Positions 8,964 to 64,000 of a stretch of DNA of 64,000 nucleotides are shown here, one piece after another. The translations under genes and the position numbers were made by a program. The stretch's first letter is position 1; the number at the start of each line of letters is the position of its first letter. The notes below the pieces were generated by a model that was not told the origin of the DNA, did not search any database, and saw only the letters and a program-made list of their open reading frames with translations. The stretch comes from Chrysophaeum taylorii (taxonomy: Eukaryota; Sar; Pelagophyceae; Pelagomonadales; Pelagomonadaceae), in contig JAQMWT010000174.1 in the NCBI GenBank assembly GCA_029834535.1, positions 17,742 to 81,741 on the forward strand, written 5' to 3'.

Positions 8964-10765
8964 CTATAATTTCGTCTGATGACCTTCGATATAAAATCGG
9001 AAATTTTCAAGAGCGGAGAGTACTGCGAGGAGTTCCAAGCGCCGAGGATCATACTGACTCATCGACTTAGGCACGGTTCGGCTCCAGTACTCAATAGCTC
9101 TCTCTTCTATTCTTTCTCTTCCATCGTCGTCAACGACTGGTACCTTTTGAAGTAGGTAAGCACCCAACCCATGCGCGGAAGCATCAGTTCGAATGTAAAA
9201 AGGCAGCGAGTAATCAGGATGGTAGACGCCCGTCGAATTGACAATAGCCTCGATGATGGCATCCCAAGCTTCCTGGCACTCTTTCGTCCACTCGAATTTC
9301 ACGTCCGGCAACGTCAGTTGTCTTAATGGCCCTGCAACTTTCGCAAAATTCCTTATATAACGCCGGCAAAAACTCCCCATTCCAAGGAAAGATCGCACTT
9401 GCTTCTTAGGGTCAGCATCCGACAAAGTGCCAGGAATTGGCATGTGTCTGATGGCTTCTAAAGACCTTGGTGATGGAAGAAGTCCGTTCGGGGTGGATAA
9501 ACGACCCAAAAACTCAATGACTTCCTGCATAAAATGAATCTTCTTGATCTTGGCACTGTACCCGTTAAAGGCGAGATGGGGGATAACTTGCACAAGGCAC
9601 TGCAAGTGATTCTTTGTATCTGCGTGACCGGTGAGAATATCGTCGATATATGCCACGAGATCACGATATAGACATTTCGACAAGTCAGTGTGTTCGACTG
9701 CTTGCAAAACAAACTTCCGGCTGGTTTGACTCCCAAAGGTAGACGCATGTAGCTGTACGCTCCCAGATGACTAGTGAAGGTTACCACATCTTGTGCATCT
9801 AGCGACAATCGTAAATTGTGATAGCCCCAACGAATATCCACACTGGAACAACAGAACTTGTCGATGAGAAACATCAACGCGCCAGCCATGCTCACACTCG
9901 GCCAGCTATCATCCTTGAGCAATGCATCGAGGCGCCGTAGGTCGACAGCTGCTCTGTAAGCATTGGAAGTGCCAGGCTCAGCACCTTTATTAGGCAACAT
10001 CAAAATAGGGAAATCCCATGGAGAATTCGCGGGACGAAAAACTCCGTCTCGGGTCCATGCTTCAATCTGCATCCGCAAACAGTCAATCTTTTCTTTCGAC
10101 AACCGACATGGCGAGAGTTTGACGGGAGTCGGGTTCTCTTCTTTAAACCGGAGCGTCACTTCAGGTGAATCAACAGGTCTCATCACATCATCGAAAAATG
10201 CCCACGAATACGAGATTAAATGCTTCATCATCAGCTTCTCGTCCTCATCTAAAGCTGGATACTCTGTAATACCCAATTCAGTCATCACCTCTTCGACCTG
10301 CGCGACGGTCGGGGGGATGGCCTGCATGCTCTCTTGATCCGCTAAATGAAGAGGCATCACCGGTAAAGGTTGACCATGTTCGTCGTGAGGCGCGTCCGCC
10401 CACGGAACATCGTACTTATTGAAATACGCTGGTCGCTCTTTCTCGGTGCCTTCATCTTGAGCAGTTGCGGAGGGCTTGTTGTCGGCTTGGTTGCTCTGCA
10501 TAACCGTAGTGGCGACGGTGCCCCCTGCAAAAGATGGGGCCGTCCCAGGCGATGTAACCGAAGGTGGTGGCGGGGTGGTGGGGGCAGCAGCTAATGGTGC
10601 CGGACTCGCAGGAGAATAGAGTTCATCGGGCGAAATCCATGACACACTTCGAGTAACAGGGTCGAGCGTTGGAATGCGCGACTCTACAGCAAAAGGTGAA
10701 AACCGTAGAATATGGTGATCGGGTTGGGCTATCGTAGTCGTCGCAATATTTCGCAACTTGCCCAA
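8964..10765 (-). pseudogene. Gypsy A pol N-terminal half: reverse transcriptase and RNase H
   Basis: Starts with a Pro-rich linker, then the pre-RT block RPAYFNKYDVPW, and RT motifs FPILMLPNKG, AAVDLRRLD, VDIRWGYHNLRL, LRLPLGVKPAG and, after a frameshift near 9700, AYIDDILTG (the catalytic xDD box). RNase H follows with YIRTDASAHGLGAY and YDPRRLELLAV. A TAG at 8964-8966 interrupts ETDHRNL. The RT copies RNA to cDNA and RNase H removes the template. Up to 33 kb it is paralogous to gypsy B, but the two are clearly diverged in protein sequence. Confidence 0.85.
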
Positions 10766-10976
10766 ATTTCGAAGTTAAGGGTCAAACGAATGTGCACTGC
10801 TAGCGCGATCCGCGTCATAGTCGCGGGTGGCACCATACTGCCAAGCATCTTAATGGCTGCTATCTCTGAAACTTTCTCTCCCCATTGCCACGTAGCAGGA
10901 ACGGTCATAATTTTCCTGGTGCATCTGCGACGTGAGTGGACGGGTGTTCGAGAAATGAGGTCCTAGGTGGAGCTTA
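10766..10976 (-). pseudogene. Gypsy A methyltransferase, 3' fragment (motif X)
   Basis: Minus-strand coding remnants on the far side of NA1 contain MLGSMVPPATM, aligning with HLASVVPPDTL of gypsy D, the motif X-like end of a C5-cytosine methyltransferase. Earlier bases align with the region before it but contain a stop. It rejoins the fragment at 17704-18441 when NA1 and one copy of the target site (GCTTA/GCCTA) are ignored. It leads directly into the RT frame. Confidence 0.65.
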
Positions 10977-11165
10977 TAGAGAACAGTAAAAATCACTGTG
11001 CCTCTGGTAGAGAATGGTGGCAGTGGTAGTGCTGCCTTTCGTCCTGTCCTCTAACGACACAAAGAGCAGCACGGTGTGCGACACAGCGATTTAGTGGTTG
11101 TAGGTGTGAATGTGAGGTTAAGGGGGAGGGGGGTTCCTAACCCTAAATGGAATTTTCTATCTCTA
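10977..11165 (-). repeat. NA1 3' LTR (189 bp)
   Basis: Near-identical to 17504-17703, except for the length of a G run and small indels. Read on the minus strand it begins TAGAGATAGAAAATTCC and ends TTCTCTA. The adjacent internal sequence (minus: CTGCGAGGGCG) is a possible polypurine tract and is also present next to the copia2 3' LTR. Confidence 0.85.
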
Positions 11166-17503: not shown

Positions 17504-17703
17504 TAGAGAACAGCAAAAATCACGGTGCCTCTGGTAGAGAATGGTGGCAGTGGTAGTGCTGCCTTTCGTCCTGTCCTCTAACGACACAAAGAGCAGCACG
17601 GTGTGCGACACAGCGATTTAGTGGTTGTAGGTGTGAAGTGATGAGGTTAAGGGGGGTGGGGGGGGGTGGGGTTCCTAACCCTAAATGGAATTTTCTATCT
17701 CTA
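17504..17703 (-). repeat. NA1 5' LTR (200 bp)
   Basis: Direct repeat of 10977-11165. The transcription start and polyadenylation sites cannot be placed from sequence alone. It is followed on the minus strand by a leader of about 220 bp that is shared with NA2 and, in part, with copia2 (CCAGGATTTCCAG block). Confidence 0.85.
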
Positions 17704-18441
17704 GCCTATTGCGCGTCACTGTGAAGGCAGGGCCGATAGCCGGGCGCGTAGATGAGAAACTGTCCACTATAATGAGCGGGTGACCACCTGTAAATCCCAA
17801 CGCTGGCCCGAACCGGTCCCGTAAATTCGGTGGTACACGCGACAATAACGGCAGTTCCAAGCGAACATTGCAAGCAAGTAGGCGCGTGCGCGAGCACAGC
17901 AATTCGGGTGTAATACTATAAAAATCGACAATGCGCGGCACATAAAATTGGTGATGCACAAAAGGGATCACTGATGGTTCCTGCTCGAGCGTCCATCGTC
18001 CAATTACATAAGGTGCGTTGCGGAAATGACGCAGGACCCAAGAAGTAGTAGTAGTGCCCTTGCGTGCGTCCCTGTAGTGCAAATTGGCAGTCGACCCATA
18101 GATACACGGCGGACTTGCGGGAAAATAATAATGCTTCAAAAATCCAAATGTCAATACGACAACACCAAGTCGTATGTACGACGATGAGATTTCCCTAACT
18201 CATGCAAAACATAGGGAATCTTCGGAAAATTGAGCTCAAAGATGGCTCAGGCTTGAGGGCAAGCATCCAAAGCCAGGACAATGCGAAATGAACTGCCATA
18301 TAGCTCATTGCATCGCCGGATACCCAACGTTGATCCTCCAGCGCCAGCAAAGTAGACGACGACAAAGGTGTAGGTGATGGGTATCCAAACCAAGGAGGCG
18401 TGCTTAGATAGCAGCTCCTTAGCGGTCGCCTCCATCTCCAT
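17704..18441 (-). pseudogene. Gypsy A C5-cytosine DNA methyltransferase, 5' fragment
   Basis: Contains motif I YFAGAGGSTLG (about 18354-18322) followed by a VLALDA block, motif IV ASPPC with catalytic Cys codon at 18104-18106, a motif VI-like LEQEPS, and a motif VIII-like CSRTRLLA. A stop at 18247 and a frame change separate motif I from motif IV. The gene is cut at 17703 by NA1 and resumes at 10976 with motif X. C5 methyltransferases transfer methyl from S-adenosylmethionine to cytosine. It lies between the gag/PR remnant and RT, as in gypsy D. Too damaged to be active. Confidence 0.85.
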
Positions 18442-18571
18442 ATCTGTTTTTTTTTTTCACTTCTTCATCTGGAGGTGGCTCAGGAGGAGGTCTGTCACTC
18501 AAGACACCCTCCTCGACTTCATCCTCGTCAACAGCAGCCGTGAGAGTTGCATGACAAGCGCCTTCAGTGGC

Positions 18572-33359: not shown

Positions 33360-33857
33360 ATTTAGTGGGATCCTGGAGATCATCTTGACACCCACTTAAC
33401 GACACGAGTACGCGTATTTAACAGCGGAATCTTACGTGACGAAAGGTGGTGTCGGAGATTCGCAAATACTGCTCAAAGGATCGATCTGTCGGGCTCAACG
33501 CGGTCGGCAGGACTTCACCACTTTGGCGGAAACCTCTGGTCACGGAGTTGTGCAGATCGACTGCTAAAATCGCAAGAGTATCTGGAGGGACGACAGACGC
33601 TAAATGTTTGAACGAATCTGTCTTAGACAAGCTAGCCCAATCATGATCCACCGGCATCGAGCAACTCGGCCGTCATCTTGAGAGTCAAAGGCTGAGTGTC
33701 CGAGCGATGCGGTCCCAAACGAAGAGGAACTCGCGTAACGGTGTGCCGTATCTGTTGCTTCTAGGGACGAGCCAAGATTCATTCAGCCAAGAAGGTGGCA
33801 TTCATCAGCTAACCAAGCTCAGCAAATCTTCGCTGCATGTTCACACGTCTTCGGACC
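33360..33857 (-). pseudogene. Gypsy B methyltransferase, C-terminal third
   Basis: Aligns with 56950-57440 of gypsy D: the target-recognition region, PVDHDWASLSKTDSFKH and motif X-like LASVVPPDTLA, followed by the linker to RT. Motifs I to VIII are absent because the element is truncated at the gypsy C border. Several indels are present. Confidence 0.8.
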
Positions 33858-34064
33858 ACTTGTCTGAACCACGGGTGGTTCACCAACCCAACAATCGCCA
33901 CGCGACGCTGCTCATTCAGAGTAGGGTGATTTCAAGAAAATTACAAATGCCCGTAAGGGTCCAGTGGAAGCGCGGTAATGCGTCCATGGACGCCCCCATA
34001 AATCAATCAGCCACAACATAAAGTCAGGTGGCAGGCACAAGTTCAAATGGGCATTAGTGGCACA
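33858..34064 (-). repeat. Gypsy C 3' LTR, truncated
   Basis: Matches the inner two thirds of 38948-39280 (TCTGAACCACGGGTGGTTC, TTACAAATGCCC, AAGTCAGGTGGCAGGC) with many small deletions. The outer end is lost where it meets gypsy B. Confidence 0.7.
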
Positions 34065-34485
34065 TAAGCACCCTGCCAGACATCGTCTCGATTCAAGGTG
34101 AGACTGACGAATGAACGTCAAGCTCGGTGAGCTACATCACAGGAGATGAACATTCCGCTTCAGGCGAAATCAATTCATCAGGCGAAAGTCAGTTCACAGC
34201 CGTCCACATTCGTTCGTAGACGAGTGAAGCTACCTTCAGGGTCTTTCTTCTGGTCTCAAATGTCGCTCTTCATCCGTTTTTCATCCTCATTTAAAGCGGG
34301 GTGGTCTGTAATGCCCAGCGCAGCCATCACCTCTTCGACCTGCGCGACGGTCGGAGGGATGACTTGCATGCTCTCTTGATCAGCTAAATGAGGAGGCACC
34401 ACTGGTACAGGATAACCATGGCGTCTTAGGCGCGTCGGCGGAACTGCGCACGTCTGAAATACGCTGGTCGCTCCTTCAATGTGCC
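34065..34485 (-). pseudogene. Gypsy C pol: N-terminal piece fused to the extreme C-terminus
   Basis: About 34081-34265 aligns with the end of gypsy A pol (6810-7065), and 34266-34485 aligns with its pre-RT region (10230-10480, including QAIPP-type and ERPAYF blocks). About 3.2 kb coding RT, RNase H and integrase is missing between, with a clean join near 34265. Confidence 0.7.
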
Positions 34486-34489
34486 TTCC

Positions 34490-34740
34490 TCTTCAGCGGT
34501 CGTAGAGACGTGGTTGCTCATCAGCAGTGACGACAACAGCGGTGACGTTTGAAGTTTGGCGAGCTGGAAAACAGCTCTTGTGGACATGAGTCCAAAGCCA
34601 ACACAATCGAAAGAGGTTCCATAGCTCATTGCATCGTTGGATCCCCAAACTCGATCCACCAGCGCCGGCGAATAAACGACGAGCTGAGATCGGTTCCACC
34701 AATCAGCTTCTAGTCGTCCTTCGTCTTCTTCATTCAGTTC
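34490..34740 (-). pseudogene. Gypsy C methyltransferase stub (motif I only)
   Basis: Minus strand encodes RLFAGAGGSSLGIQRCNELW at about 34675-34616, motif I of a C5-cytosine methyltransferase and nearly the same as gypsies A and D, then runs out of frame into the pre-RT linker. Motifs IV-X are deleted. An acidic segment upstream connects to the end of the gag-PR frame. Confidence 0.75.
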
Positions 34741-50024: not shown

Positions 50025-50359
50025 TGTGGCAGTAACGCCCATTCCCCCTACTTGCCTGCCTGCCACCTGACTTACCCTGATTGTTGCTCTGGCACTGACC
50101 TTGCAATTATGGGGGGGGTGTCATCTTGACATCCTCGCCTGTACTTCCACTGAACCCAATGTACCGGGCATTTGTATTGCTTTCTTGCTGTCTTCTTGCT
50201 ATTACCCTCATTTTGATTGTCCGATTTTGTGATGGCGTGAGGTATTACGCTGAGATCGGGCGTGTGGTGGTCTCACCCGCGGTTCGGGTTGGGAGAAAGG
50301 GCTGTTGAGGCCCCTGGTCCGGCCAAGAGGGGCGGGTGTCTGAGAGAGAAACCACTACA
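50025..50359 (+). repeat. Gypsy A-type 5' LTR (335 bp)
   Basis: TGTGGCAGTAACGCCC...AACCACTACA, near-identical in inverse orientation to 6475-6810. Followed by TGGTCTCAGAAACGGGA (50361-50377), the primer-binding region seen in gypsy C, so this is a 5' LTR and not a solo LTR. The rest of the element would lie beyond copia2-b, outside the window. Confidence 0.85.
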
Positions 50360-50360
50360 G

Positions 50361-50377
50361 TGGTCTCAGAAACGGGA
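50361..50377 (+). promoter_or_regulatory. Gypsy A primer-binding site
   Basis: TGGTCTCAGAAACGGGA, one base after the LTR end; identical in the gypsy C leader. TGG pairs with the CCA end of a tRNA. The tRNA species is not determined. Confidence 0.55.
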
Positions 50378-50572
50378 TAGAGGTAGAAAATCTGAACTAG
50401 GGTTAGTACCCCCTGTTCTAGGGTTAGTTCACTTGACTTCGCCACCTTTGATTTAAGAAAACGCTGTGTTATTCACACCGGCTGTCCTCGATTAAGAGAC
50501 AGATTCGAGGACAGACTACCACTGTTCTCACACTCTGCTGAAGGGTAACACAGTCGTGATTACTGTTCTCTA
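50378..50572 (+). repeat. copia2-b 5' LTR (195 bp)
   Basis: TAGAGGTAGAAAATCTG...TACTGTTCTCTA; same length as 19970-20164. The ends also match the NA1 and NA2 LTR ends. Confidence 0.85.
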
Positions 50573-50611
50573 GGTATTGGGCACCAGTCCCGGTATCAGC
50601 AGAGTCCCCGG

Positions 50612-50940
50612 TGTGGCGGCAACTCCTGACCGCTAAGGCTTCCCCCCCCCTTCTCTCGAGGCTTGATACCCGTTCAACGGGACACCTTTCCCGATCTTTT
50701 TAGTGACATCATACCTCTCTTTTGTGAGAAGCATTCTCGCTGTATTCTTGTAGTTTCCTTGCTATCATATTCCATCTCTCCATCTTGCTTGGAGGCTTGG
50801 TGAGCGTGAGCAAGGTGTGTGGCGAGCTTATCCGACCCCGCGTCCGTGTTTCCTCGTTCAGTGAGGTCTAGGGCGAGTCGGTGAGTACCCCCTTTGTCAC
50901 CCGGGGGTCGGGGAGGTTTTTTTTTTTCTGTGCCGCCATA
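50612..50940 (+). repeat. Gypsy D 5' LTR (329 bp)
   Basis: TGTGGCGGCAACTCC...TGTGCCGCCATA with a T10 run near its end. The bases after it, CGTGGTGGAGTACACGAG, may include the primer-binding site (TGGTGGAGTAC). Confidence 0.9.
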
Positions 50941-51371
50941 CGTGGTGGAGTACACGAGATCGTGCGACGACATCGGTCGCCGACGAGCGAGTGCTGCCGT
51001 ACGTGTTGTATTACGAGGTCCGGATTTGTACGTGCGCCCTGATCAAGCACACGGAGTTCCATTGGACCGGTTTGCGTTGAGAATATACGCGAACGTTGTT
51101 TGTGTTCGTACGATCCGAGTGACGACGAATACGCGTGCGAGTTGGAAATCGCAGCGCATTCTCCCGGGAATTGATTTTGGTATAGCTGAACGGTGGAAGC
51201 TGTTTAGCGAGTGGGATCGCTACCCACGGGCATTTTTGAATTGCCAGCGGATTGGAATTCCGTGAGTGCTGTTTTTACAGCGACAGATAGCGTTGTTGGA
51301 ATCAACGTGAATTACTTCGAGTGATCGGATCCGGACGTGTTTCGAGATTCTTGATCGAAATTTGATACGGT

Positions 51372-54300
51372 ATGGAGATAAACGCAGACGTGCGTGAGGA
51401 AGAATCTCCTCCAGTTCTTCCCGCCGCCCCTGAGATAGGCCGCGAGGAAGGTGAATTAAGAGAGGCCGAGGCAGTCGACGTTGCTGACGTGCCCCCTGAT
51501 GTGCCTCCGGATACTGCCATTTTTTCGCCGTTGAGTCCAACGACTCCGGATCGTGGCGAGCGTGTTACTATTGAGCGCGGATCTGCAGCCCGAAGTCGAC
51601 TTCGTGAAGACCTCGAGCGGAGACGTCGCGAAAATGAACGATTAGCTGAGCTTTTTGCTCGTGAAAGGGCTGAAGCGAAAGAGGAAGCGGCTCGACGAGA
51701 AGTTGATATGCTCAATGATGCATTACAGCAAGAGATCGAGACCTCGAAGACCCTACGCGAAGAGGTTGAACGATTTCGTCGTGAACGAGATGAATTGTTA
51801 GCCGAACGTGCGCGTCGGGAGAGTAGCCGCGAACGACCCGTGAGTCGACCCGAACCGGAAACGCCCGTGAGGCCGCCTGAACCGGAAAGGAACACTGAAA
51901 CGGGGAATGAACCTCCGCCCCGAGTCGATACGGAGAATGAGGGTAGGGCGGACATTGAGAATGAAAGTACGAAAATTTTACGGGAATTATCGCGGGGAAT
52001 ATCGCAGACGGTTGCCAACGCCTTCGAAAAGGGCAACTTGAGCCGATCCCATCGACCCACTTCCAGTTTGAAGCCTGATAACTTCAAACTCGTCATCGAC
52101 GGCCGAGACCAACGGCAATTTAATTTGGATTCGGCGGCGATGATGCATACTTTAGCAGATGACCATTACTCGGTCGAGAAATTACGTTACTTACTACCTG
52201 TGCATCTACGGGACACCGTTGCACCAATTTTTGAGGAACACTTGCAGAAATACGAGGAGCTCTGCGATGAGCTACCACACGGTCCGTCGTTTTACTTGAA
52301 ATTAGATACTGACGATGAAGAGCATGGAGTCTCGGTTCGTCGTATCCGTCGTCTTAACAAGACGTATTGCGACAAGATTTTGGATTATTTTAGATCGACT
52401 TGCCGACCTCCGCGCACGCAGCAGGAGCTGCTTGACAAGCTGCGGAAGGTCACCCAGGCTTCAGTTCCGAAGAAGTCTGGGGAGCGGCACGTCCAAACGT
52501 ATTGTACCAGATTCCAATCTGAAGCCTTGGAGTTTTGTTCCGTGTCCAGCCGCACGATGGATGATGTCGATATCCTCGACCAGCTTATCAGTGGATTGAC
52601 GTCCAAGGAGTTGAGGACCCGTGTGCGGACTATGAGGAGCGGACATCCTGATAGTTACGTGACTTTTAAGTCGATGGTAGCGCTTATTACGCGGCTCGAG
52701 AACGACTTACGAAAGTTGATGGAGGAGGAGAAGGACCAAGGCCCACCTAATCCGAAATCGAATAAACCGCCGCGAGGGCGGGGAGTTCGAGCTATGGCCT
52801 CCGATCAACAAGCCAAGCAAGATGCGGATAAACCGTCTGGGAATACGGATCCGCTGATTTTACGAGATCCTTTTCTGTGGGGCAAGAGAACGTGCCCGCA
52901 CTGTGGGTTCTTCTGGACCACCCATGATGAAGATGAACACGGAAATCGCGTAGTTTGCAACCGCGATCCGGATCGTTACTACTGTGCAATGTGGAAGCGA
53001 ATTCGTAAGCAGAAGAAGCAGCCCATATCGCGGTCCGATTGGGCAAAGCGTGATGATGCATCTAATGCGAACGCCACGCACGGATCGGAGCCTTCTAATG
53101 AAATTCAAACGGCCCTCACCGATCTTGGAACCACAATGGCGACCATGGTGAGCGAGGTCAGAAGCATCAAGGATACTACGTCGTTTTCTACACGACAGCG
53201 AGACGGACGATCACCTTCTAGACGATCGTCGCGCCGACATCGAAGCCAGAGCCCTAATCGAAAAGCCCATACTGCTCAAGACAGCCCGAGTCCTTGCCGT
53301 CACCGGAGCTCTAGTCGCAATTCGCGCCGGCGCCGACGTCATCGACATTACGATGACGAGTATGACGGAGGCCGATATCAGGATAGTTCGGGACATTCGA
53401 GCGCATCTTTCGCGTTCCAATCTTTATGCGACGCGCCGCCAATGTCGGGGGTTGTCTTTTACCCGACGGCGCGCCCTGCCCGAGTCTCCAATGATGTTGC
53501 CGATGTCGCTGTGACGAGCAGCGTTTGCAACAGGAGCAACATACCACCAACTACATCGTATATGGAAGCAATGTCAGATGCTACTTGGGATTCTCCGCAC
53601 TACTGGGAAGACTCAGATTCGGAGACTGACGAACCCATGCCGCAGGTTCCAGTGTCCCCCCATTCGTCAATGTGCATGTCTTGCAGGGCAGTTTACGATG
53701 ATGACGTTAGACCTTGTGAGTTGACGTCGAGGACGACGTCTTCTTTTCCTACGGGGCCCCCCGAGACCGTTTTAGCCGATGTTTTGGCCGATACATTTTT
53801 GGTCGCAGCAGAACAGACCACGGTGGCGCCGGTGGAGGAGAAGTTGACGGGAATGTCCGATTTGTTGGACGAGCAGCGATTACCAGAAGAGATAAAGGAG
53901 GAGATATATGTGCCTCCGATTGAGAGGTGTCAGAATTTGTTGTCAGCGAAACTGGGAAATGAAGAAGCAGCCGAAGCGGCGAGCGCCAATATAGATTCAG
54001 CGGCAAGATGTAGTACGCCAGATATAGCAGCGGTGACGATGCAGATTCCGGGCGATGCGAAACCGGAGATACGATGTCATCACACTGCACTGTCGCCGAG
54101 CGATGGGGAAAAGATCGAGCAAGACCTCATCACCATCGGTTGCCTGGACCCTGGTACCCTTACGTTTATAGTGGGTCATATTTATAGACGACGAAACGGG
54201 CCGAAGTTTGCAACGACTTTAGGCGTGGATGGGATGGCGGATGTCTCTTATATTTGTCGTGGGATGGTTGAAAAACTGGAAAAGGATAGCATCATCTTTG

Positions 54301-54599
54301 ACCGGGGCGATCTTCGAGTCGAGCGCACCTTGTATGGGTCAGGATTGAACAAAACGACTATCCACCAATGGGTTGCATTGCGGATTGCGCTTGCGGACGA
54401 CGTTGCCGTTCCAGTTGTTGCTATTGTGGCCGATACTAATCATCTATTTTTGCTGGGAGCGCGCGATATTCGGGTGTTTGGAGCCATAGTGGATTACCCG
54501 CGGAATCGCATTGCGTTTCTACGCACACAAGTCGCTTACGGGCGCAAGAAGTTAAAGGTGCAGGATCGACGAGTAGATTCTCCGATTTTGACGTCCTAA
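51372..54599 (+). CDS. Gypsy D Gag-protease, 1075 codons
   Basis: Start at ATG 51372 (MEINADVREEES). Acidic N-terminus; long Arg/Glu coiled coil at about 70-160; capsid-like helices at about 220-460 (YFRSTCRPPRTQQELLDKL, LDQLISGLTSKELRTR); a Cys/His zinc-binding segment (CPHCGFFW...VVC); an Arg/Ser-rich patch; and a retropepsin-like domain near 950-1060 with GVDGMADVSYI instead of DTGAS and FLLGARDIRVFG as second half. Ends at TAA right before the Helitron insertion; in gypsy C the same protein continues into the beta domain, so this stop probably results from the interruption. Assembles the particle and processes it. Confidence 0.85.
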   Translation: MEINADVREEESPPVLPAAPEIGREEGELREAEAVDVADVPPDVPPDTAIFSPLSPTTPDRGERVTIERGSAARSRLREDLERRRRENERLAELFARERAEAKEEAARREVDMLNDALQQEIETSKTLREEVERFRRERDELLAERARRESSRERPVSRPEPETPVRPPEPERNTETGNEPPPRVDTENEGRADIENESTKILRELSRGISQTVANAFEKGNLSRSHRPTSSLKPDNFKLVIDGRDQRQFNLDSAAMMHTLADDHYSVEKLRYLLPVHLRDTVAPIFEEHLQKYEELCDELPHGPSFYLKLDTDDEEHGVSVRRIRRLNKTYCDKILDYFRSTCRPPRTQQELLDKLRKVTQASVPKKSGERHVQTYCTRFQSEALEFCSVSSRTMDDVDILDQLISGLTSKELRTRVRTMRSGHPDSYVTFKSMVALITRLENDLRKLMEEEKDQGPPNPKSNKPPRGRGVRAMASDQQAKQDADKPSGNTDPLILRDPFLWGKRTCPHCGFFWTTHDEDEHGNRVVCNRDPDRYYCAMWKRIRKQKKQPISRSDWAKRDDASNANATHGSEPSNEIQTALTDLGTTMATMVSEVRSIKDTTSFSTRQRDGRSPSRRSSRRHRSQSPNRKAHTAQDSPSPCRHRSSSRNSRRRRRHRHYDDEYDGGRYQDSSGHSSASFAFQSLCDAPPMSGVVFYPTARPARVSNDVADVAVTSSVCNRSNIPPTTSYMEAMSDATWDSPHYWEDSDSETDEPMPQVPVSPHSSMCMSCRAVYDDDVRPCELTSRTTSSFPTGPPETVLADVLADTFLVAAEQTTVAPVEEKLTGMSDLLDEQRLPEEIKEEIYVPPIERCQNLLSAKLGNEEAAEAASANIDSAARCSTPDIAAVTMQIPGDAKPEIRCHHTALSPSDGEKIEQDLITIGCLDPGTLTFIVGHIYRRRNGPKFATTLGVDGMADVSYICRGMVEKLEKDSIIFDRGDLRVERTLYGSGLNKTTIHQWVALRIALADDVAVPVVAIVADTNHLFLLGARDIRVFGAIVDYPRNRIAFLRTQVAYGRKKLKVQDRRVDSPILTS

Positions 54600-55590
54600 C
54601 TACTAATCGACAGATGTTTGTTTGTTTGTTTGTCTGTCTGTTTGTCCCTCGATTTAGGGTAAGGATCAGGTAGGCGCGAGAGCCAGACAGTGATCCTCCA
54701 AGCCGTCTACGGCGACCTCGCAGACTATTTCCACGACCCGCGGCGGCTCTTTCAGCGCGCCATTCTCACGCCCCGTCGAAACGATGTTGTCGATGCTGAC
54801 AACGTGCGCATGACCGCGGCCTTTTTTTCCCGGAGACGAGGCGTCGGAGTTCTTTTCGGCTGACTAGGCTGGGTCGGAAGACGACGCCTCGCTCTTTACA
54901 GTAGAGTTTTCAACTCCCTGACAACCAACGGGATGCTGACTTTGAGCGCGAGCTTAAGGTCTTCGAAACCTCGACCCGTCGCACGGCCACTGCAACGGTA
55001 CCAGATACATGATCGATCGTGTCGTTGTCACCGAGGCTCCTCAAACCTGTATCCCTTAAGGCCCGCCTACGCCAAACGATCAACAAGAGCCAGGGCCAGA
55101 CGCCCCGCGAGGTCGGCGTCCTCTTTCCCAAGCCCGTCTTCTGCCACGTCCAGCTCTACCTGGCTATCTGTCGATCGGCATCCCCGAGGATATACTCATC
55201 TGGGTCGACGACTCCACCCTACCCCACACGTGCTGCGCAATACCGATAAACCCCCTCCCAGCGTCTACACGCGCACTATAGGTGAACTTACTGGGACCAC
55301 GTGAACTTACTGGGGTTTGAGATTGGGACTAGGTGAACTGAGTGACCAGGTGAAACTGGGACCAGGTGAACATACTGGGGTTTTTAGAGTAAAGGTTTTA
55401 GAGTAAACTCAAAGGTTGGCGGCGCGTGCGGATCAAAGCAGCTTAGATTGGCGGAGGCGAGAGCGACGAGCTCAAAGGAGTTGGTGTGAGCTAGGTGAAC
55501 TTACTGACCAGGTGAACTTATATGAAGCTTACTGGGACCAGGTGAACTTACTGGGGTTAGAGATTGGGACTAGGTGAACTTACTGGCCTG
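54600..55590 (+). mobile_element. Helitron remnant Hel-2 inserted between protease and methyltransferase
   Basis: Starts near a TTTG/TCTG simple repeat (54614-54650). Codes in broken frames for FQRAILTPRRNDVVDADN, NSLTTNGM, GHCNGTRYMIDRVV, TINKSQGQTPREVGVL and PVFCHVQLYLAICRS, the last third of a Helitron Pif1-like helicase. The tail carries repeats of AGGTGAACTTACTGGGACC ending at CTTACTGGCCTGCACTTG near 55595. Gypsy C reads through the equivalent position, so this is an insertion that splits the gypsy D frame. Confidence 0.8.
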
Positions 55591-57573
55591 CACTTGTTCA
55601 TAACAACTTATGACGAGAGCAATCCCGTGGTAGTTCAGGTTTATGGACAACAGCACCATGCGATGCAACAAAGCCTGAGCACAGTTGAGAACCGAGTCTA
55701 CGCTCGCTTGTGCAAGATTGAAGACCTCCAGCGTCCACCGCCGAAACGAGCGGGAGCTTCGACGACTTGGGGAGTTCCTCCAGTTACGCCTTCTCAAAGT
55801 TCGAACAGCGATGCTTATGAAGTGAAAGCCTATGCTGCGCGCACGATGAAGGTCGAGCCTGGGCGCACCTACTGCGTGCCAGTCGCTCTTTCAGAGCCCG
55901 TGGAAACTGGGCAAGTTTTCGTTGCTACGTCTTCTGGGTACGAGCAACTCGGGGTAGTCGATGGAATGTGTTCTTCTCCTGAGGATCATGATAAGTTCGC
56001 AGCTCGAGTGGCGATATCCTCTACCCAGGATGTGCCGACCGTGATCACTCAAGGTGAAGTCCTTGCTTTGGGCGATATTGTTCGTTTTGATGACGAGCTG
56101 AATGCTGAGACGGTCGACGATTTAACGAAGGATGGTGAAGCCGAATCTAACAAGGCTAACCTATCATTCACTGTTTCGGTCGCAAGCCATCTTACTCAAG
56201 GCAATGCGGCTCCTGAACTGATGCTTTTGAGCTCAGTGCAGAAGGCGTCTCCTTCTGCCGATAAGAAGAAGAATTCTCGTCAAGAATCGCTCGGTAACGA
56301 CGATTTCGACCGACGAACTGACGAGGAGGAAAAGAAATGCCGAGAAGTTACAGAATGCGAGATTCGCCGAAGGTTTGAAAAGGTCCACTGGGTGCCGATC
56401 ACGTATCGCAAGGTTGTGATGCTCTTCAGCGGCGCCGGAGGAAGTACTTTAGGACTGCAACGAGCGAACGAGTTGTGCGGGACGTCGTTTCGAGTCGTCC
56501 TTGCTCTTGACTCGTCAACAGCTGCCAACAAGGTTCATCAGAAGAATTTTCCGAAGATACCTGTGGTCCAGCACACGCTCTGTGGACGATATGACTCGAC
56601 CCTCCGGTTGATCAAGGCTTATTTGCCTGAAGCGGAATGGTCATCGTCGATGTGTATAGCGTCTCCGCCCTGCGTTCATTCCGCACTCTGCAACTTGACA
56701 TCCAGAGATGTTGGCAAGGGTGTTACGGCCACTAACTGGACGATGAAGCTGTGCAAGATGGCTGGCTTCATGATGTGGCTGATTGAACAGGAGGCGTCCA
56801 TTATTTCGTATATAGCGCGCTTACACCCTTACGTGTACGTCGTCAATTTTCATGATATCACACCTACTCTGATGAGCTCTCGCGTGCGATTGTTGGTTTC
56901 CAGTCACCCACTGCACTTGCAAGAGGCTCCGAAGACATGTGTGAACATGCAACAAAAATTTGCTGCAGCTTTAGGTTATGCTCATGAACGCCACCTTCTC
57001 CAGCTGAATAATCTTGGCTCGTCCCGAGAAGCAACAGATACGGCTTACACCGTTACGCGGGTTCCTCTTCGTTTGGGACCGCATCGCTCGGACACTCAGC
57101 CTTTGACTCTCAAGATGACGGCCGAGTTGCTCACGATGCCGGTGGATCATGATTGGGCTAGCTTGTCTAAGACAGATTCGTTCAAACATTTAGCGTCTGT
57201 CGTCCCTCCAGATACTCTTGCGATTTTAGCAGTCGATCTGCACAACTCCGTGACCAGAGGTTTCCGCCAAAGTGGTGAAGTCCTGCCGACCGCGTTGAGC
57301 CCGACAGATCGATCCTTTGAGCAGTATTTGCGAATCTCCGACACCACCTTTCGTCACGTAGAGATTCCGCTGTTAAATACGCGTACTCGTGTCGTTAAGT
57401 GGGTGTCAAAGATGATCTCCAGGATCCCACTAAATGGGAACCGCCAGAAGTTCCTATGCTTCCGCTTCCAACAGATGCGCCGGGGACGGCTCATGCTTTT
57501 TTCTGCTGGGCCCCCCGACAATCAAAAGTGGACGTTCCGCCGGATCCTGAACCTGAACAGGAGCCGAAAGTAA
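55591..57573 (+). CDS. Gypsy D beta domain and C5-cytosine DNA methyltransferase
   Basis: Open frame in which the first about 12 codons are Helitron tail. Beta-rich segment (AARTMKVEPGRTYCVPV... to ITQGEVLALGDIV, about 55850-56090) resembles the dUTPase-like region after protease in some gypsies. Methyltransferase from about 56401: motif I LFSGAGGSTLG (56422 on), VLALDSS, motif IV ASPPC with catalytic Cys codon 56671-56673, motif VI-like IEQEAS, motif VIII-like SSRVRLLVS, a short target-recognition region, motif IX-like LTLKMTAELLTMP and motif X-like LASVVPPDTL. It should methylate cytosine in DNA using S-adenosylmethionine. Glu-Gln-Glu where ENV is usual is atypical. The frame shifts near 57412 into RT; coding after that point in this frame is spurious. 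Confidence 0.88.
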   Translation, partial: HLFITTYDESNPVVVQVYGQQHHAMQQSLSTVENRVYARLCKIEDLQRPPPKRAGASTTWGVPPVTPSQSSNSDAYEVKAYAARTMKVEPGRTYCVPVALSEPVETGQVFVATSSGYEQLGVVDGMCSSPEDHDKFAARVAISSTQDVPTVITQGEVLALGDIVRFDDELNAETVDDLTKDGEAESNKANLSFTVSVASHLTQGNAAPELMLLSSVQKASPSADKKKNSRQESLGNDDFDRRTDEEEKKCREVTECEIRRRFEKVHWVPITYRKVVMLFSGAGGSTLGLQRANELCGTSFRVVLALDSSTAANKVHQKNFPKIPVVQHTLCGRYDSTLRLIKAYLPEAEWSSSMCIASPPCVHSALCNLTSRDVGKGVTATNWTMKLCKMAGFMMWLIEQEASIISYIARLHPYVYVVNFHDITPTLMSSRVRLLVSSHPLHLQEAPKTCVNMQQKFAAALGYAHERHLLQLNNLGSSREATDTAYTVTRVPLRLGPHRSDTQPLTLKMTAELLTMPVDHDWASLSKTDSFKHLASVVPPDTLAILAVDLHNSVTRGFRQSGEVLPTALSPTDRSFEQYLRISDTTFRHVEIPLLNTRTRVVKWVSKMISRIPLNGNRQKFLCFRFQQMRRGRLMLFSAGPPDNQKWTFRRILNLNRSRK

Positions 57574-58784
57574 GGAGCGAGCCGAATGTGCGCGTCAAAG
57601 GTGAAAAGATCAATAAGAGCCACCCTGAGGTGAGGTTCAAATACGAAGAAAAGTTCGATGTGCCATGGAAGGATGCGCCGCGCGATGCGGACGGTGTACC
57701 GTTACCGCAGATTCCCGAGCACGTCAAGGACAATGATGCGATGAAAGTCGTAATTCCGACGAAGGAAGAAGTTGAGAAGGTTGTTCGAGATCTAGGAATT
57801 CCCGACAACCCGCATCTGGATGATGATGCGAAGATGATGTTGAGCCATTGCGTGCAATACGCGTGGGCTTTCTTTGATCCGATTATGAGACCCGTGGACT
57901 CGCCACCGGTTTCTCTACGCTTTAAAGACGCAAACCCACGACCGATCAAGATGACGCCTTATAGGTTGACGCCAGCAAAGCTCGAGTGTCTCAGAAAGCA
58001 GATCACTGAGTGGTGTCGCGATGGAGTCATCCGACCGGCGAACTCTCCGTGGGGATTTCCTGTACTGATGCTGCCTAAGAAGGGAGCCGAGGCCGGGACG
58101 TCGAATGCTTTTCGTGCTGCCGTTGACTTGCGTCAGCTCAATGATCAGCTGGTCAATGACAGTTGGCCGAATATTCGTCAAGATGATGCTTTGGCTTTTC
58201 TTGCCATGCGCCGTTGGCGGACGTGCATTGATATTCGATGGGGTTATCATAACTTACGTTTGGACGCCGCTGCTCAGGACGCTGTTACGATGGTTAGTCC
58301 ACTTGGAGCCCATAGTTTCTTGCGCTTGCCTCTAGGAGTAAAAACAGCAGGAGCTCTCTTTGTAAGCAGATGGCTAGCGATTTGTCCACATGGATGTATA
58401 AGGACTTGGTCGCGTTTGTCGACGATATTATGATGGGATCGGATGAACTCCATCGACATTTACAAGTTTTGATTGAAGTGTTGTGCCATTTAGCACAGCG
58501 AGGATATAGTGGACGAACTTCGAAGTTCCACCTCCTCAAGGATGAAATCGAGTTTTGGGACATATTTCGACTCCGGAAGGCTTGAAGCCGAATCCCAAGA
58601 CGTTAGAAGCGTTGCAGCAGATGCCGATTCCCGGTACGTTGCCCAATACGTCCCCGAAGACCCAGATTCGATCTTTCATTGGTATGAGCAACTATTGCCG
58701 CCGATATGTGAAGAATTATTCGAAGATTGTGGAGCCGCTTAGGCGATTGTGTCTTGAAGGCGTTAAGTTTGAGTGGACGCCTGA
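57413..58784 (+). pseudogene. Gypsy D reverse transcriptase
   Basis: Pre-RT block (KFDVPWKDAPRD), then RT motifs ITEWCRDGVIRPANSPWGFP, AAVDLRQLN, CIDIRWGYHNLRL, LRLPLGVKTAGALF; after a shift at 58359-58361, AFVDDIMMG with the catalytic Asp pair; after a shift at 58553-58556, the thumb and connection (RSFIGMSNYCRRY). Each shift equals loss of one T relative to gypsies A and B. All catalytic residues are present. Confidence 0.85.
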
Positions 58785-60036
58785 GTGCCAAAGGCATGGG
58801 ACACGATCATCGAAGCTTTGGTGGATTCTCGTGGAGTTTATCATCCTGACTACGATCTTCCTTTTCAGATCCGCTCGGATGCTTCCAAGGATGGTCTGGG
58901 TGCGTATCTTTTTCAGCTCGTGGAAATCAAGGACGAAACCGGCAAGGTGACACGAGAGGAACGAGTAATTGAGTATTGGAGCCGAGCTGTGCCGAAAGAG
59001 ATGCGGAACTATGAGCCTCGCCGGCTAGAGCTACTGGCAGTTATTCTTTCTCTTGAGCATTTCCGCTCTTATATTGAAGGTCACAAGACGATCCTTGAAA
59101 CAGATCATCGCAACTTGACGTTTTTACGAAAGGCGAAGCACTCGTCTGGGCAGTTGGCTCGATGGGCGATGCGGCTCGCCAATTTTGATCCTGAATTGGG
59201 TTACAAGCCAGGGAAGTCGCCGGGAATGAGCATCCCTGACTGTCTCTCTCGCAATCCTATAGATCATGTCATCGAGACGGACGAGTTTGGTGAACCCTTG
59301 AACCACGCGTATCTAGTGTGCCAAGAACTCCCTCGTTCTGTTGATGATGAAGGAGTACCTTTACCTGGGTGCCATGTCATTCTGTCGTTTGTTACGACTG
59401 AGTTGCCTGTGGAGGAAGAGGAAGAAGACCTCGATGATCCGATGCAATTGGTCACGTCTCATGCTACGAAACAACGTCAGAAGCAACGACTTCAGACCCA
59501 GCCTAGTATTTTCCGTGATGCCGATGATTACCAAGAGTACATCGACAAGATTCCGGATAATTTGACTTTGGAAGAGATAGCCAAAGAGCAGATCACTGAT
59601 GCTACTTGCGAGGACATTCGTTATCGCATGGCTCAGGGCCATTCTCTTCGTCGGTACGGAGCCAATTATCGCTATCAAGTGGTGAAAGGAGTTCTCTACC
59701 GTGCCGCACCCGACTTGCACCCGATGATAGTCGCACCCCGAACTTTACGGACGCGCATCATCCGATTGTACCATGACACACCTCTCAATGGTGGTCATAT
59801 GGGTCGTCAAAGTACAGTGCAGTCGATACTTGAACGTTTTTGGTGGCCTCATATGTCTAATGAGGTGGGTGCTTACATTGCTGGTTGCATAGTGTGCAAG
59901 AAAGCTCGTACGCCTGAACCAAAGAGAGCAGGTCTGCTTCAGCAACCGGTGTATGATGGTGATTGTGTCGTCCTTTGTATGGATTTGTTTGGACCTTTGC
60001 CCAGTGCTGGTCCCGAGACATATCTCATCGTCTTTT
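58785..60036 (+). CDS. Gypsy D RNase H and integrase zinc domain
   Basis: Begins after an AAA run (58790-58792) that is AAAA in gypsy B. RNase H: IRSDASKDGLGAYLF, YWSRAVPKEM, EPRRLELLAV, LETDHRNLTFL. An acidic linker with EEEEEDLDD follows, then the integrase HHCC domain (LYHDTPLNGGHMGRQ, AGCIVCKKAR) and the first core Asp (MDLFGPLPS). Breaks at a T5 run (60034-60038) immediately after it. Confidence 0.85.
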
Positions 60037-61282
60037 TGATCCATTTTCTCATTTCTTGATTCTTGACGTACTACACCATAAGACTGCTGAGTCAATCCTC
60101 GAGTCTTTTGTCGCGAATATATTACTCAAAGGTTATCTACCTCAGAGGATTCGTACCGACAATGGGAAAGAGTTCGTCAACAAGTTGATGGAAGAGTTTT
60201 GTCATCTTTTCAATGTTCGGTATAGTACCACGATTCCGTATCATGCTCAGGCTAATCCTGCGGAAAGGGTCAACCGCTTTATCAAGGCTTTCCTCCGTGC
60301 GTGCCTTCAAAACCGCAAGATCACGGAATGGCCCGAATTCGCGGAGTACATTGCTTTCTGTTACAATCGTAAATTTATTCCGGGGACTCAGATCTCACCT
60401 TTCATGCTTCGTCTTAACCGGCAGCCTTTATTGCCAACCGATTACACGATCATGGATCTTGATGTCCGCCGCCTGCCGAAAACTCGCTCCGATGTTGTGG
60501 CAGAGACTCGCGAGAGGCTGAAGTTCTATACCGCTACGGTGAACGAAGCTCGTGAGAAGGCTCTTCGTAAACAACGTCTCGCCTATAATGCGGACCATGT
60601 TGATGTGGAGTATGAAGAAGGTTCACATGTTCTGCTCTACATCCCTTTTCTTCAGAACAAGCTTCGACCGGAATGGCGCGGTCCATTCGTTATTTTGGAA
60701 CGCTTGTCCCCGGTCACTTACAGGATTGAGTCTCTTGATTCTCCTCCCGAACGCCGTTGTGTTCATGTTAGTCAGATTACCCCTGTGATGGTTTCTCCAG
60801 TGGTCGATCGAGCTGTGCCCAAGCCCAAGGAGACCTTTCGGGATGATTACAAGCATGGTAAGTTCGTTATCTTTCGGATTCCGGATAATAAACGGTCCGA
60901 TTGGCGAAAGAAGATTTATGTCGCTGAAGTTTATGAACCCTATGATTTTGTGAATGATCGAGTCGCTCTGCATTTCTATGCTGATCTCGGTCCCCATGAC
61001 AAGGTTTCTTATTACAAGCCTACTTCACATCTCTCTACTCGCAAGCTTAAGCCGGAATACAAGGACGTGGACGGTCGCAGTTTCACCGACAAGACCAAGG
61101 TCAACAACAGTACCACTCCTTGTGTCACCGACTTCGCCCCGCATGAGATCGATGTGTTGATTCCTAAGTTCACTTTGCGTGGTGGACGCGTTCCTGAACC
61201 TGTCGTTGAACGTGCCTACAAGAAGATTCGTTCTCGAGATGCTCATTCAGCCAAGGCTCGTGCTTCTCGCCGGACTCGCTGA
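60037..61282 (+). CDS. Gypsy D integrase core and conserved C-terminal domain
   Basis: In the frame resumed after the T5 run: RIRTDNGKEFVN (second Asp), ANPAERVNRFIKA (Glu), the gypsy SH3-like region (YEEGSHVLLYIP, RPEWRGPF), then a distinct domain from about 60850: KHGKFVIFR, KKIYVAEVYEPYDF, RVALHFYADLGPHD, LKPEYKD, and a basic tail RASRRTR. The last domain is shared with gypsy A despite overall divergence. Its place is that of a chromodomain in chromoviruses, but it is not a canonical chromodomain. Confidence 0.85.
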
Positions 61283-61312
61283 GGGCAGCTCGTGTTCTCA
61301 CCAGGGGAGTCC

Positions 61313-61635
61313 TGTGGCGGCAACTCCTGACCGCTAAGGCTTACCCCCCCCTCTCTCGAGGCTTGATACCCGTTCAACGGGACACCTTTCCCGATCTTCT
61401 TAGTGACATCATACCTCTCTCTTGTGAGAAGCATTCTTGCTGTATTCTTGTAGTTTCCTTGCTATCATATTCCATCTCTCCATCTTGTTGAGAGGCTTGG
61501 TGAGCGTGAGCAAGGTGTGTGGCGAGCATATCCGACCCCGAGTCCGTGTTTTCCTCGTTCAGTGAGGTCTAGGACGAGTCGGTGAGTACCCCCTTTGTCA
61601 CCCGGGGGTCGGGAAGGTTTTTCTGTGCCGCCATA
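61313..61635 (+). repeat. Gypsy D 3' LTR (323 bp)
   Basis: Direct repeat of 50612-50940, with scattered substitutions and a shorter T run. Followed directly by the copia2-b leader. Confidence 0.9.
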
Positions 61636-61686
61636 CCAGGATTTCCAGACAAGTCAAGTTAACTGACGTTCCTGAACCCAAGCAAA

Positions 61687-63650
61687 ATGCCGACGAACCA
61701 AGAACTCCAAAAGGAGATGAAAGAACAAGAAGTTCGTTTCAAAATAGAAATGCAACAGCAAGCTCAAGCGTACGAAGCTCGGCATAAACAAGAAATGCAA
61801 GACCAAGAAACTCGCATGATGGCTCAAATACGCGCATTGGCCACCCAAGTGCAAGCAACGCAAGCACCACCACCTGCCGTCGCTGCTGCGGCTCCGCCTC
61901 CCACTCCGGCTCAACAAGATCCCAAGTCTAAGGTCAACACCTTTAGTGACCCCCCTAGCGCCGTCCTCAAGTCGATGGACAACGCTCAAGTCACACGCGG
62001 ATGCTTTCATTTCGCGTCATGCAATTGTTCGTCGAACATGTGATGACAGAAACAGGCATAACTCAGTCCTTCCTACAGGGCTTCTACTCGTGGGAATCCG
62101 TCCTGCGCGGATCGAACGATCTCGCTGACGCTCTCTAAGCCACTGTATCGACGAATACGACAAGGACCCCGACAACCACTCTACCGCCGGGAACACGCAA
62201 GATTTCCAAGGCCGTTACGTATACTACAAGGGTGTCTACCGCAAGTTCGGCAAACACTTCCTGGACAACGTCTACGAGCCAAAGCTCCAAGAACTCAAGA
62301 ACCAAGACAAGGACCCGACCGATATGACAAAAGGCAAGTTATATCCGATCACTCAACCGCATCTCCAAGGAAAAGAAGCCGACGTCATCGTATATCTCCG
62401 CGAGACCGTACACCCCCTATTTCGCTGTTTCCTACATGCCGTTAGCGACTCCATCAAGCATTCAGCATACGACGAAATCGATGCACTCGGATCCTCCTAC
62501 CCGATAGGACTCGAATTCGTGCTACAAGTTCGCCTCGCACTCGATAAGCATACGGGCCAGAACCACATCCATCATGCGCATTATGTTTACAATGCCTTTC
62601 TGGACACGCCGTTCAACCCTGAAATCCACGAGCCAGCTCACTACATCGACTACATGCGTCATGTCCAGCAGCAACTCCGCCAGATCACCACGGACGCTTC
62701 TCTCCAACTTCCCGACGACAAGATCCTCGAATAAATTCACCAAACTCTCCGCTTCAAGTACTCCCCAAGCTTGCTTGACTCCCGCGCACCAACACACATC
62801 AAGGGCTTTGCACGTCTTGCTAACTGTTTGCGCACTCCCAACGATTCGCTGTTACTCGACGAAGACAAGGACGCCATCCACCACCTTCCTAAGCTCATCG
62901 CTCGCATCACCGTCATTTCAACGTTCGAGCGCAACTTTTGGGCTCACCTCAAGCCTCACCCCACTCTTAACTTCAAGCCTTTGCGCTTCGTTACGGACTT
63001 TGGTCGTCTGCCAACAAAGGATAAAGACAACCCACGCTTTCGCTCCCGCCGTCATGGTCTCCACCTCACCGAAGACGATGATGAAACCTCTCCCTCTGAA
63101 GACGAAACCCCACCGGACCCCATTGAAGCCACCGACCCCGTCGCCGTTTTCTCACGGAAGCCAACCTTGATCAAGAGGAAGACAATGACCTCATTCACCA
63201 ACTGCGCCTACCGCAAGAAGCAACTTTCGCGGCACGTCAAAAGCCCCCTCCAGGCAAAAGCCTCCTAATCCTCGCTCCCCGTCTTACTACGACGTCAATG
63301 ACAATCCTAAGGCCAAGGCCACCCCTGTCACCCCACAGAAGAACAAGCACCGTCCCCGCGCTCCTCCTGTCACCCCTGACAAACGCGAGCACCCGCATCT
63401 TCGAAAGGTCACCTTCCCAACACAACCTCATCCACCCAAATCGTCTACTCAGACCTACGCTTCAAGGTCCCCCTTCGTGAAGTTCGTCGCAAACTCCAAA
63501 CCATACGAAATCTTAGCCAAGCCGGTCGCCAACATACGTCTAGCTCCGAGCATATGAACAAGCTCATCAACCTCATCACCACCATTTCCGACGAGATACT
63601 TCTTTCCGAAGCCGAAGCTGACGCCGCCGAATTCTTTAGATTTTCTATCT
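61687..63650 (+). pseudogene. copia2-b gag
   Basis: Starts MPTNQELQKEMKEQE like copia2-a. Gln-rich helices, Pro/Ala linker, capsid-like region with YIDYMRHVQQQLRQI, acidic DDDETSPSEDE and a basic tail. Frame breaks near 61985, 62040 and 62135, a GAA-to-TAA stop near 62732, and another break near 63160. Closely matches copia2-a in inverse orientation. Confidence 0.75.
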
Positions 63651-63654
63651 CTAG

Positions 63655-64000
63655 ATGTTAACGTCCGATCCCCAAGATGATCAACCCGATGAGGACGACG
63701 CCGAAACCGACGACCAAGAAGACAAGGGCATCTCGGCTTCTATGACGACAAAAGATCAGCTAGACCTCTGCGACGACGCCATTCCCGAAACCAATGATGA
63801 AGATGACTCCGCCGAAGACTACGCCAAACGTCACAGTGACTACATGCGTGCTCTCCACAAGAGTCGGCTTTTCCCTGATGGTTGCCGACGACGCCTGTGC
63901 CGACAACCACACCTTACTTCATCCGGCACCAAACCCCAGATGACGAATTTCCCGACTTCATCCATTATCTCCCACATGAGTCGCAGATTTTCGTTGTACA
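63655..64000 (+). CDS. copia2-b pol start, cut by the window end
   Basis: ATG at 63655 opens the acidic segment MLTSDPQDDQPDEDDAETD as in copia2-a, directly after the gag end and a TTTTCTATCTCTAG stretch. The protease would begin just past the window. Confidence 0.6.
   Translation, partial: MLTSDPQDDQPDEDDAETDDQEDKGISASMTTKDQLDLCDDAIPETNDEDDSAEDYAKRHSDYMRALHKSRLFPDGCRRRLCRQPHLTSSGTKPQMTNFPTSSIISHMSRRFSLY

Follow-up and report, generated by a model that had tools for sequence, protein, structure and literature searches.

A C5-cytosine methyltransferase domain is, in all probability, a fixed component of Pol in a large Ty3/gypsy family of Chrysophaeum taylorii, a pelagophyte alga and thus a stramenopile. 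This reading of the sequences is based on homology over the domain, its place in the element, selection, the kept Cys and Arg residues, and the single-ORF architecture of intact copies.

The Ty3/gypsy element and its methyltransferase domain

The window, i.e. the whole stretch of 64,000 nucleotides analysed here, holds one copy of the element, nested in a member of a Ty1/copia family. Its parts, and the adjoining copia sequence, are:

50612..50941, + strand: 5' LTR of the Ty3/gypsy element (identical to the 3' LTR at 312 of 323 aligned bases, 3 gaps)
51366..54599, + strand: ORF of 1077 codons (stop to stop) for gag and a protease-like region, with a protease-like motif near its end recognised by eye
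54600..55560, no strand: about 960 bp carrying short repeats and no matching coding sequence; absent at the corresponding point of the L055 ORF
55561..57573, + strand: 670-codon ORF, comprising a linker and the methyltransferase domain
56398..57264, + strand: predicted C5-cytosine methyltransferase domain, ORF residues 280-568 (motifs, profiles, fold model)
57399..58433, + strand: reverse transcriptase (RT), first part, in another frame (RVT_1 13.2 bits only, below cut-off)
58785..60059, + strand: RNase H and integrase zinc-binding region (PF17917 96.4 bits, PF17921 63.9 bits)
59963..61282, + strand: integrase core and C-terminal part, in another frame (PF00665 35.0 bits, cut-off 32.6)
61313..61636, + strand: 3' LTR (alignment with the 5' LTR)
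61637..64000, + strand: start of the Ty1/copia-family element hosting the gypsy insert (joined flanks in L058 and L060; the left flank ends at 50611)

The two LTRs are direct, and a 5-base duplication (CCCGG/CCAGG, one mismatch) is possible by eye. The flanks of the gypsy element (50612-61636), at 50212-50611 and 61637-64000, lie side by side in loci L058 and L060, copies of the copia family that lack the insert. The first part of the copia element (61637-64000, + strand) runs off the end of the window.

In the window copy the coding sequence is disrupted: gag, methyltransferase, RT and integrase lie in separate frames, the RT continues from 58546 in yet another frame, and the stretch of about 960 bp splits gag/protease from the methyltransferase ORF. 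Repeats of the GTGAACTTACTGGG type occur in that stretch (54600-55560). The gag/protease-like ORF (51366..54599) gave no Pfam match, protease included; its VDGMADV is what we take, by eye, to be the protease motif.

Locus L055 has a single ORF of 3063 codons from gag to integrase. A protease-like motif at 1050 (by eye) is followed by the methyltransferase from 1439, RVT_1 at 1997-2161 (45.8 bits), RNase H at 2231-2368, H2C2 at 2552-2610 and the rve integrase at 2628-2721; RT and RNase H thus precede the integrase within one Pol, as is the rule for Ty3/gypsy. A comparable single ORF of 3067 codons (L057) lies about 24 kb away on the same contig (G000:C5). An earlier note on this DNA had placed the domain between gag/protease and RT, and this position is confirmed, with the protease recognised by eye only.

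Motifs and conserved residues

That note had also named a series of C5-methyltransferase motifs, and all of them were found in order and at their coordinates in one open frame (ORF 55561-57573, + strand). Motif names and the roles of catalytic residues follow general knowledge of these enzymes.

56422..56442, + strand: motif I, LFSGAGG (translation of ORF 55561-57573)
56500..56511, + strand: LALD (translation of ORF 55561-57573)
56662..56673, + strand: motif IV, SPPC with the candidate catalytic Cys92 (Cys in 40 of 40 copies)
56785..56787, + strand: E130, candidate motif VI Glu (39 of 40 copies; alignment and model disagree)
56875..56895, + strand: motif VIII, SSRVRLL (R162 in 40 of 40 copies, R164 in 39 of 40)
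57190..57210, + strand: motif X, LASVVPP, GN replaced (translation, clade alignment)

Residues were counted in 40 of 46 loci (L009-L054), those in which a single frame holds an almost complete domain; L023, L028, L032, L037, L043 and L053 were left out. Cys92 is present in every one of the 40, its preceding Pro91 in 39, and the motif I glycines likewise in 39, the remaining copy lacking that region. The SPPC Cys and the R-x-R pair also occur in the more distant clade C (see below). Motif VIII keeps R-x-R and lacks the Q, the motif IX Arg is absent in all three clades examined, and motif X has AS (clades A and B) or GS (clade C) in place of GN, with VPP conserved.

E130 directly follows a strand (123-129) in the fold model, and its spacing had suggested the catalytic Glu. 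We withdrew it as a firm assignment because alignment to the enzyme P0122 sets other residues opposite ENV: EASII of the window copy and EPSVI of clade C stand opposite EPSII of EPSIIVFENV, and non-ENV residues follow. Judged from its sequence, the domain is likely, if not assured, to be enzymatically active.

Homology of the domain

The Pfam profile PF00145 matched the window domain with 27.6 bits (24.1 for the whole ORF; cut-off 22), with only profile positions 2-52 aligned. Scores were below this cut-off in three longer ORFs of sister copies (18.4 to 21.5 bits), the L055 polyprotein having 18.4 bits. TIGR00675 reached 18.8 bits, far under its cut-off of 100.65, and a PHROGs DNA methyltransferase family matched the first part of the domain only (E 5.9e-8). 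From the window copy alone, the evidence for a methyltransferase is genuine but thin. In clade C, PF00145 scored 36.5 bits in L062 and 35.6 bits in L063, over two stretches each, the best being residues 220-283 on profile positions 260-321 in L062 and residues 10-93 on positions 7-72 in L063; in L062 it matches both ends of the domain.

Profile comparison extends the homology. A profile of the three clades (A3) was compared using hhalign, with column shuffles as controls. With six C5-methyltransferases, four from phages and two from a database, it gave a probability of 98.5 and a score of 108.8, the maximum of 60 shuffles being 22.9; with eight more bacterial enzymes (14-enzyme set) the values were 98.2 and 101.9 (maximum of 40 shuffles, 24.5). 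The C-terminal half alone scored 35.7 with the 6-enzyme set (maximum 19.5 in 60 shuffles and 24.1 in 40) and 38.7 with the 14-enzyme set (maximum 21.4 in 40). With a Dnmt2-rich set this half scored 25.1, which was equalled once in 60 shuffles (that value is possibly spurious), while a second control of 40 shuffles reached 22.7 at most. A “Dnmt2-like” label was dropped because the C-terminal half was not distinct with this set.

A partly guided fold model has a Rossmann-type methyltransferase fold that is matched by C5-methyltransferases; a single-sequence structure prediction (pLDDT 33.7) was useless. The C5-methyltransferase identity proposed in the earlier note thus holds: the family HMM matches above its cut-off, profile comparison exceeds the shuffles, and the fold model agrees and has a Rossmann-type core.

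Sequence searches beyond this genome returned little. In the PDB, phmmer gave three Dnmt2 chains (E 0.037 to 0.076), a profile of close copies gave Dnmt2 and one unrelated chain, and a further search gave Dcm-type and Dnmt2 chains, all insignificant. Among 5.8 billion proteins (candidates between about 370 and 1170 residues long) there were zero relatives at E <= 0.001; profile A1 found just two PF00145 proteins among public proteins (E 6.6 and 9.6), and viral contigs yielded no relative. Not even a protein from C. taylorii's own copies surfaced in the public protein sets, presumably because repeats were masked before annotation, so the absence of relatives elsewhere says little. Similar elements in other genomes may be missed for the same reason. 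No transcript or protein of the gypsy domain was found in public sets, which seem to omit C. taylorii repeats.

Copies, clades and selection

Copies were sought in a 70.8 Mb assembly of 697 contigs; the published C. taylorii assembly, from Illumina, Nanopore and PacBio reads, is given as 71 Mb in 702 contigs, and the main text of that paper has no word starting with transposon-, retro- or repeat- (PMC10366177). The 670-codon ORF has at least 75 matches (66 of 1560 candidates scored), and 15 of the 30 best are stop-free across the matched stretch. Clade A includes the window copy, and clade B is 82-84% identical to the window domain. Clade C was found via one of the decayed copies in the window:

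17684..18456, - strand: decayed methyltransferase copy, clade C
33421..34702, - strand: pieces of a decayed methyltransferase copy, some of them weak
10732..11050, - strand: weak piece of a decayed methyltransferase copy

Clade C has at least 154 matches (150 of 694 candidates scored). Of the eight clade C loci fetched, two (L062 and L063) encode the complete domain in a single frame, and it is 42-43% identical to the window domain; the three clades are about 42% identical at the extremes. For the RNase H/integrase of the window element, counted irrespective of a methyltransferase domain, there are at least 100 matches (99 of 1192 candidates scored).

Median dN/dS values (Nei-Gojobori) for the domain were 0.24 within clade A (325 pairs of 26 copies), 0.19 within clade B (66 pairs of 12) and 0.055 between clades A and B (312 pairs; dN 0.118, dS 2.1, near saturation). 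The same A-versus-B comparison gave 0.024 in RT (14 A and 3 B copies), 0.098 in the protease-like part (21 A, 10 B) and 0.157 in the linker (23 A, 12 B), so that constraint on the domain is above that on protease and linker and below that on RT.

A separate methyltransferase in a Ty1/copia family

A second methyltransferase was noticed in another retroelement family. PF00145 has at least 57 matches in the genome (123 of 474 candidates scored), the window gypsy copy not being among them. One of the 57 is a Dnmt2 gene (L001) and one an SNF2-linked host gene (L002); among the 55 others, the eight that were read (L003-L008 and those in L058 and L060) form one family. Their domain lies upstream of RT and has TLPCQHLS, and in most of the eight also IVENVPP; the ORF of L060 matches RVT_2 (Ty1/copia RT) with 97.9 bits. 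With the 14-enzyme set this domain gave an hhalign probability of 95.0 and a score of 58.2, versus 20.5 for 40 shuffles, with the alignment confined to motifs I to VIII; its profile (A2) found nothing in the PDB. Its dN/dS is 0.12 (28 pairs of 8).

The gypsy and copia domains are without profile similarity to each other (hhalign probability 0.7). In a tree whose deep order is unreliable, the two fall into separate clades of their own (support 100/100 each) with long branches, and eight Dnmt2 rows form a clade that excludes nine gypsy rows (98/100), again with very long branches. Judged by these comparisons, two LTR superfamilies in one genome carry separate, unrelated predicted C5-methyltransferases.

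Host methyltransferases and CpG footprint

The host Dnmt2 gene (L001) matches CTAYLR_008533 of C. taylorii with 100% identity; its locus adjoins a light-harvesting-like gene. L002 (G000:C621:16962-20237) has C5-methyltransferase and SNF2 matches within a single ORF of 2086 codons and is, from this domain pair and without a tree, probably a host gene of the DNMT5 type. DNMT5 is a maintenance-type enzyme in other species. For related algae, PMC9998398 reports DNMT5a in pelagophytes, heavy linker methylation in Aureococcus, and the disappearance of CG methylation in a diatom upon loss of DNMT5a alone.

Lasting 5-methylcytosine at CG in the element copies should raise C-to-T change there. We counted differences at third codon positions within clade pairs, which are not independent. 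In clade A, C/T differences before G numbered 542 of 11927 (0.045), with 0.048 before A, 0.038 before C and 0.037 before T; G/A differences were 0.052 after C, 0.093 after G, 0.024 after A and 0.006 after T. In clade B, C/T differences were 0.026 before G, 0.063 before A, 0.006 before C and 0.051 before T. CpG observed/expected ratios were 1.17 for the window element, 1.33 for L055 and 0.99 for the copia locus L060, and for the host-gene loci 1.26 (L001) and 1.46 (L002). By both measures, pairwise third positions and observed/expected ratios, the gypsy copies have neither a raised C/T rate before G nor CpG depletion. This speaks against dense, persistent CG methylation of the gypsy copies; transient methylation of cDNA, methylation of RNA and efficient repair lie outside its reach.

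Comparison with known systems

Retroelement-borne C5-methyltransferases are of a known kind, and the precedents in dinoflagellates and a charophyte to which the earlier note had pointed are in print. PMC5890265 describes them, evolving under purifying selection, in Symbiodinium (LINE and DIRS elements) and in Klebsormidium (a gypsy element). The SymbioDIRS enzymes methylated CG in yeast, with retroelement activity there in two cases; KnitGypsy-Dnmt3 showed no activity in yeast, a result its authors call inconclusive; and SymbioLINE-Dnmt elements are CG-poor (PMC5890265). A 2025 paper describes LTR Copia and DIRS elements with DNMT3 in streptophytes and dinoflagellates (PMC12344493), and a 2019 opinion article mentions DAM or DCM, treated jointly, in Ty3/gypsy and DIRS elements of several groups including stramenopiles, which are thus already named in general (PMC6338049). 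Among the open-licence papers that our searches listed, there was no report of a retroelement C5-methyltransferase in a pelagophyte, nor of a single genome in which two LTR superfamilies carry C5-methyltransferases unrelated to each other. A pelagophyte joins the few lineages with such retroelements, with two separate families, gypsy and copia, in one genome.

Nearest in architecture is KnitGypsy-Dnmt3 of Klebsormidium nitens, where the methyltransferase also lies inside an LTR gypsy Pol ORF under purifying selection (PMC5890265). That domain is Dnmt3-related, whereas the C. taylorii domain aligns best with bacterial and phage enzymes in a comparison set without Dnmt3; the host is a charophyte rather than a stramenopile, and the repeats are DIRS-like in arrangement rather than two ordinary LTRs. 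SymbioDIRS-Dnmt3 and SymbioLINE-Dnmt share with our elements the combination of multiple copies and selected C5-methyltransferases, but belong to DIRS and LINE rather than LTR gypsy and copia elements, and SymbioLINE copies are CG-poor while the C. taylorii gypsy copies are not (PMC5890265). The Copia elements of PMC12344493 resemble our copia family in bearing a C5-methyltransferase; theirs is reported as DNMT3; the C. taylorii copia domain, described here by its motifs, has TLPCQ and IVEN. Bacterial C5-methyltransferases around P0122 (L074-L081) share the motif order and a similar C-terminal stretch, TVTR...GPH...LTLKM.AELLTMP...SVVPP in the gypsy domain versus TIT...HP..R.LT.RE.AR.QTFP...GNA(I/V)PP in the bacteria; the gypsy domain is about 20% identical to P0122-type enzymes, has a shorter recognition region, lacks the motif IX Arg and GN, and does not clearly keep motif VI.

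Possible roles of the domain

The earlier note had gone further and suggested that the element methylates its own or host DNA. What stands of its interpretation is a selected, standing Pol part of a multi-copy Ty3/gypsy family; the methylation of element or host can be put forward only as an inference, given the disrupted frames of the window copy, an ambiguous motif VI, a motif X without GN and the absence of a CpG footprint. That the domain is an active enzyme methylating the element's new cDNA or its RNA in the particle is, in our view, evenly balanced between true and false; that the substrate is specifically the cDNA is a more tentative proposal. Synthesised within Gag-Pol, the domain would be packaged alongside RT and integrase and so meet the element's own nucleic acid, where it could methylate cytosines of the fresh cDNA, or of the RNA, inside the particle. 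A methylated incoming copy might then pass for host DNA, or escape degradation or editing; in a host with DNMT5a-type methylation, unmethylated cDNA could stand out. In this scheme we infer expression, packaging, catalysis, substrate and benefit. For DIRS elements, marking of their own cDNA to pass as host DNA was proposed by De Mendoza et al. 2018 (PMC5890265).

An active enzyme is suggested by the profile homology over the domain, with PF00145 matching either end of the clade C domain in L062, the fold model, the kept SPPC Cys and R-x-R, the low A-versus-B dN/dS, the intact single ORFs of L055 and L057, the separate copia family with its own methyltransferase, and CG methylation in yeast by similar enzymes (PMC5890265). 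Against it speak the unclear ENV of motif VI, the missing Q of motif VIII, Arg of motif IX and GN of motif X, the lack of CpG hypermutability with CpG observed/expected above 1, the absence of its transcript or protein from the public sets (which seem to omit the repeats), and the missing yeast activity of KnitGypsy-Dnmt3, called inconclusive by its authors (PMC5890265). Several of these points would also fit a fold kept without methylation, as a nucleic-acid-binding or base-flipping module that, for example, holds RNA or cDNA for RT or guides integration: motif VI is ambiguous, the motif IX Arg and motif X GN are lost in three clades, and a CpG footprint is absent. We consider this somewhat unlikely, as a mere binding fold needs neither Cys92 (40 of 40 copies) nor R-x-R (39 of 40), both found in clade C as well.

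Less probable again is an enzyme acting mainly on host or integrated DNA, which would mark the insertion site or the element, thereby lowering both the element's expression and the damage to its host. This is named as a possibility in PMC5890265, and the DNMT5-type host gene could keep such marks; but in the copies C/T change before G is not elevated and CpG is not depleted, and the gypsy family is numerous. It is very improbable that the resemblance is due to chance or that the domain is a captured passenger heading for decay. The window copy, broken and aligning over only the first 51 PF00145 positions, would by itself allow this; the shuffle controls, the low dN/dS over near-saturated dS and the intact long ORFs argue against it.

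If the packaged domain is active, it would offer a test case for an element using the mark that usually silences it, and for how maintenance-only genomes regain marks. The C5 genes of the host's own that were found are Dnmt2 and the DNMT5 type (maintenance), and one could speculate, though we regard it as quite unlikely, that de novo methylation is supplied by the retrotransposons, the gypsy and copia superfamilies of C. taylorii having acquired unrelated C5-methyltransferases separately. If true, a genome limited to maintenance methylation would continually draw new DNA methylation from its retroelements. The existing long reads (PMC10366177) may reveal methylation over the copies without new culture.
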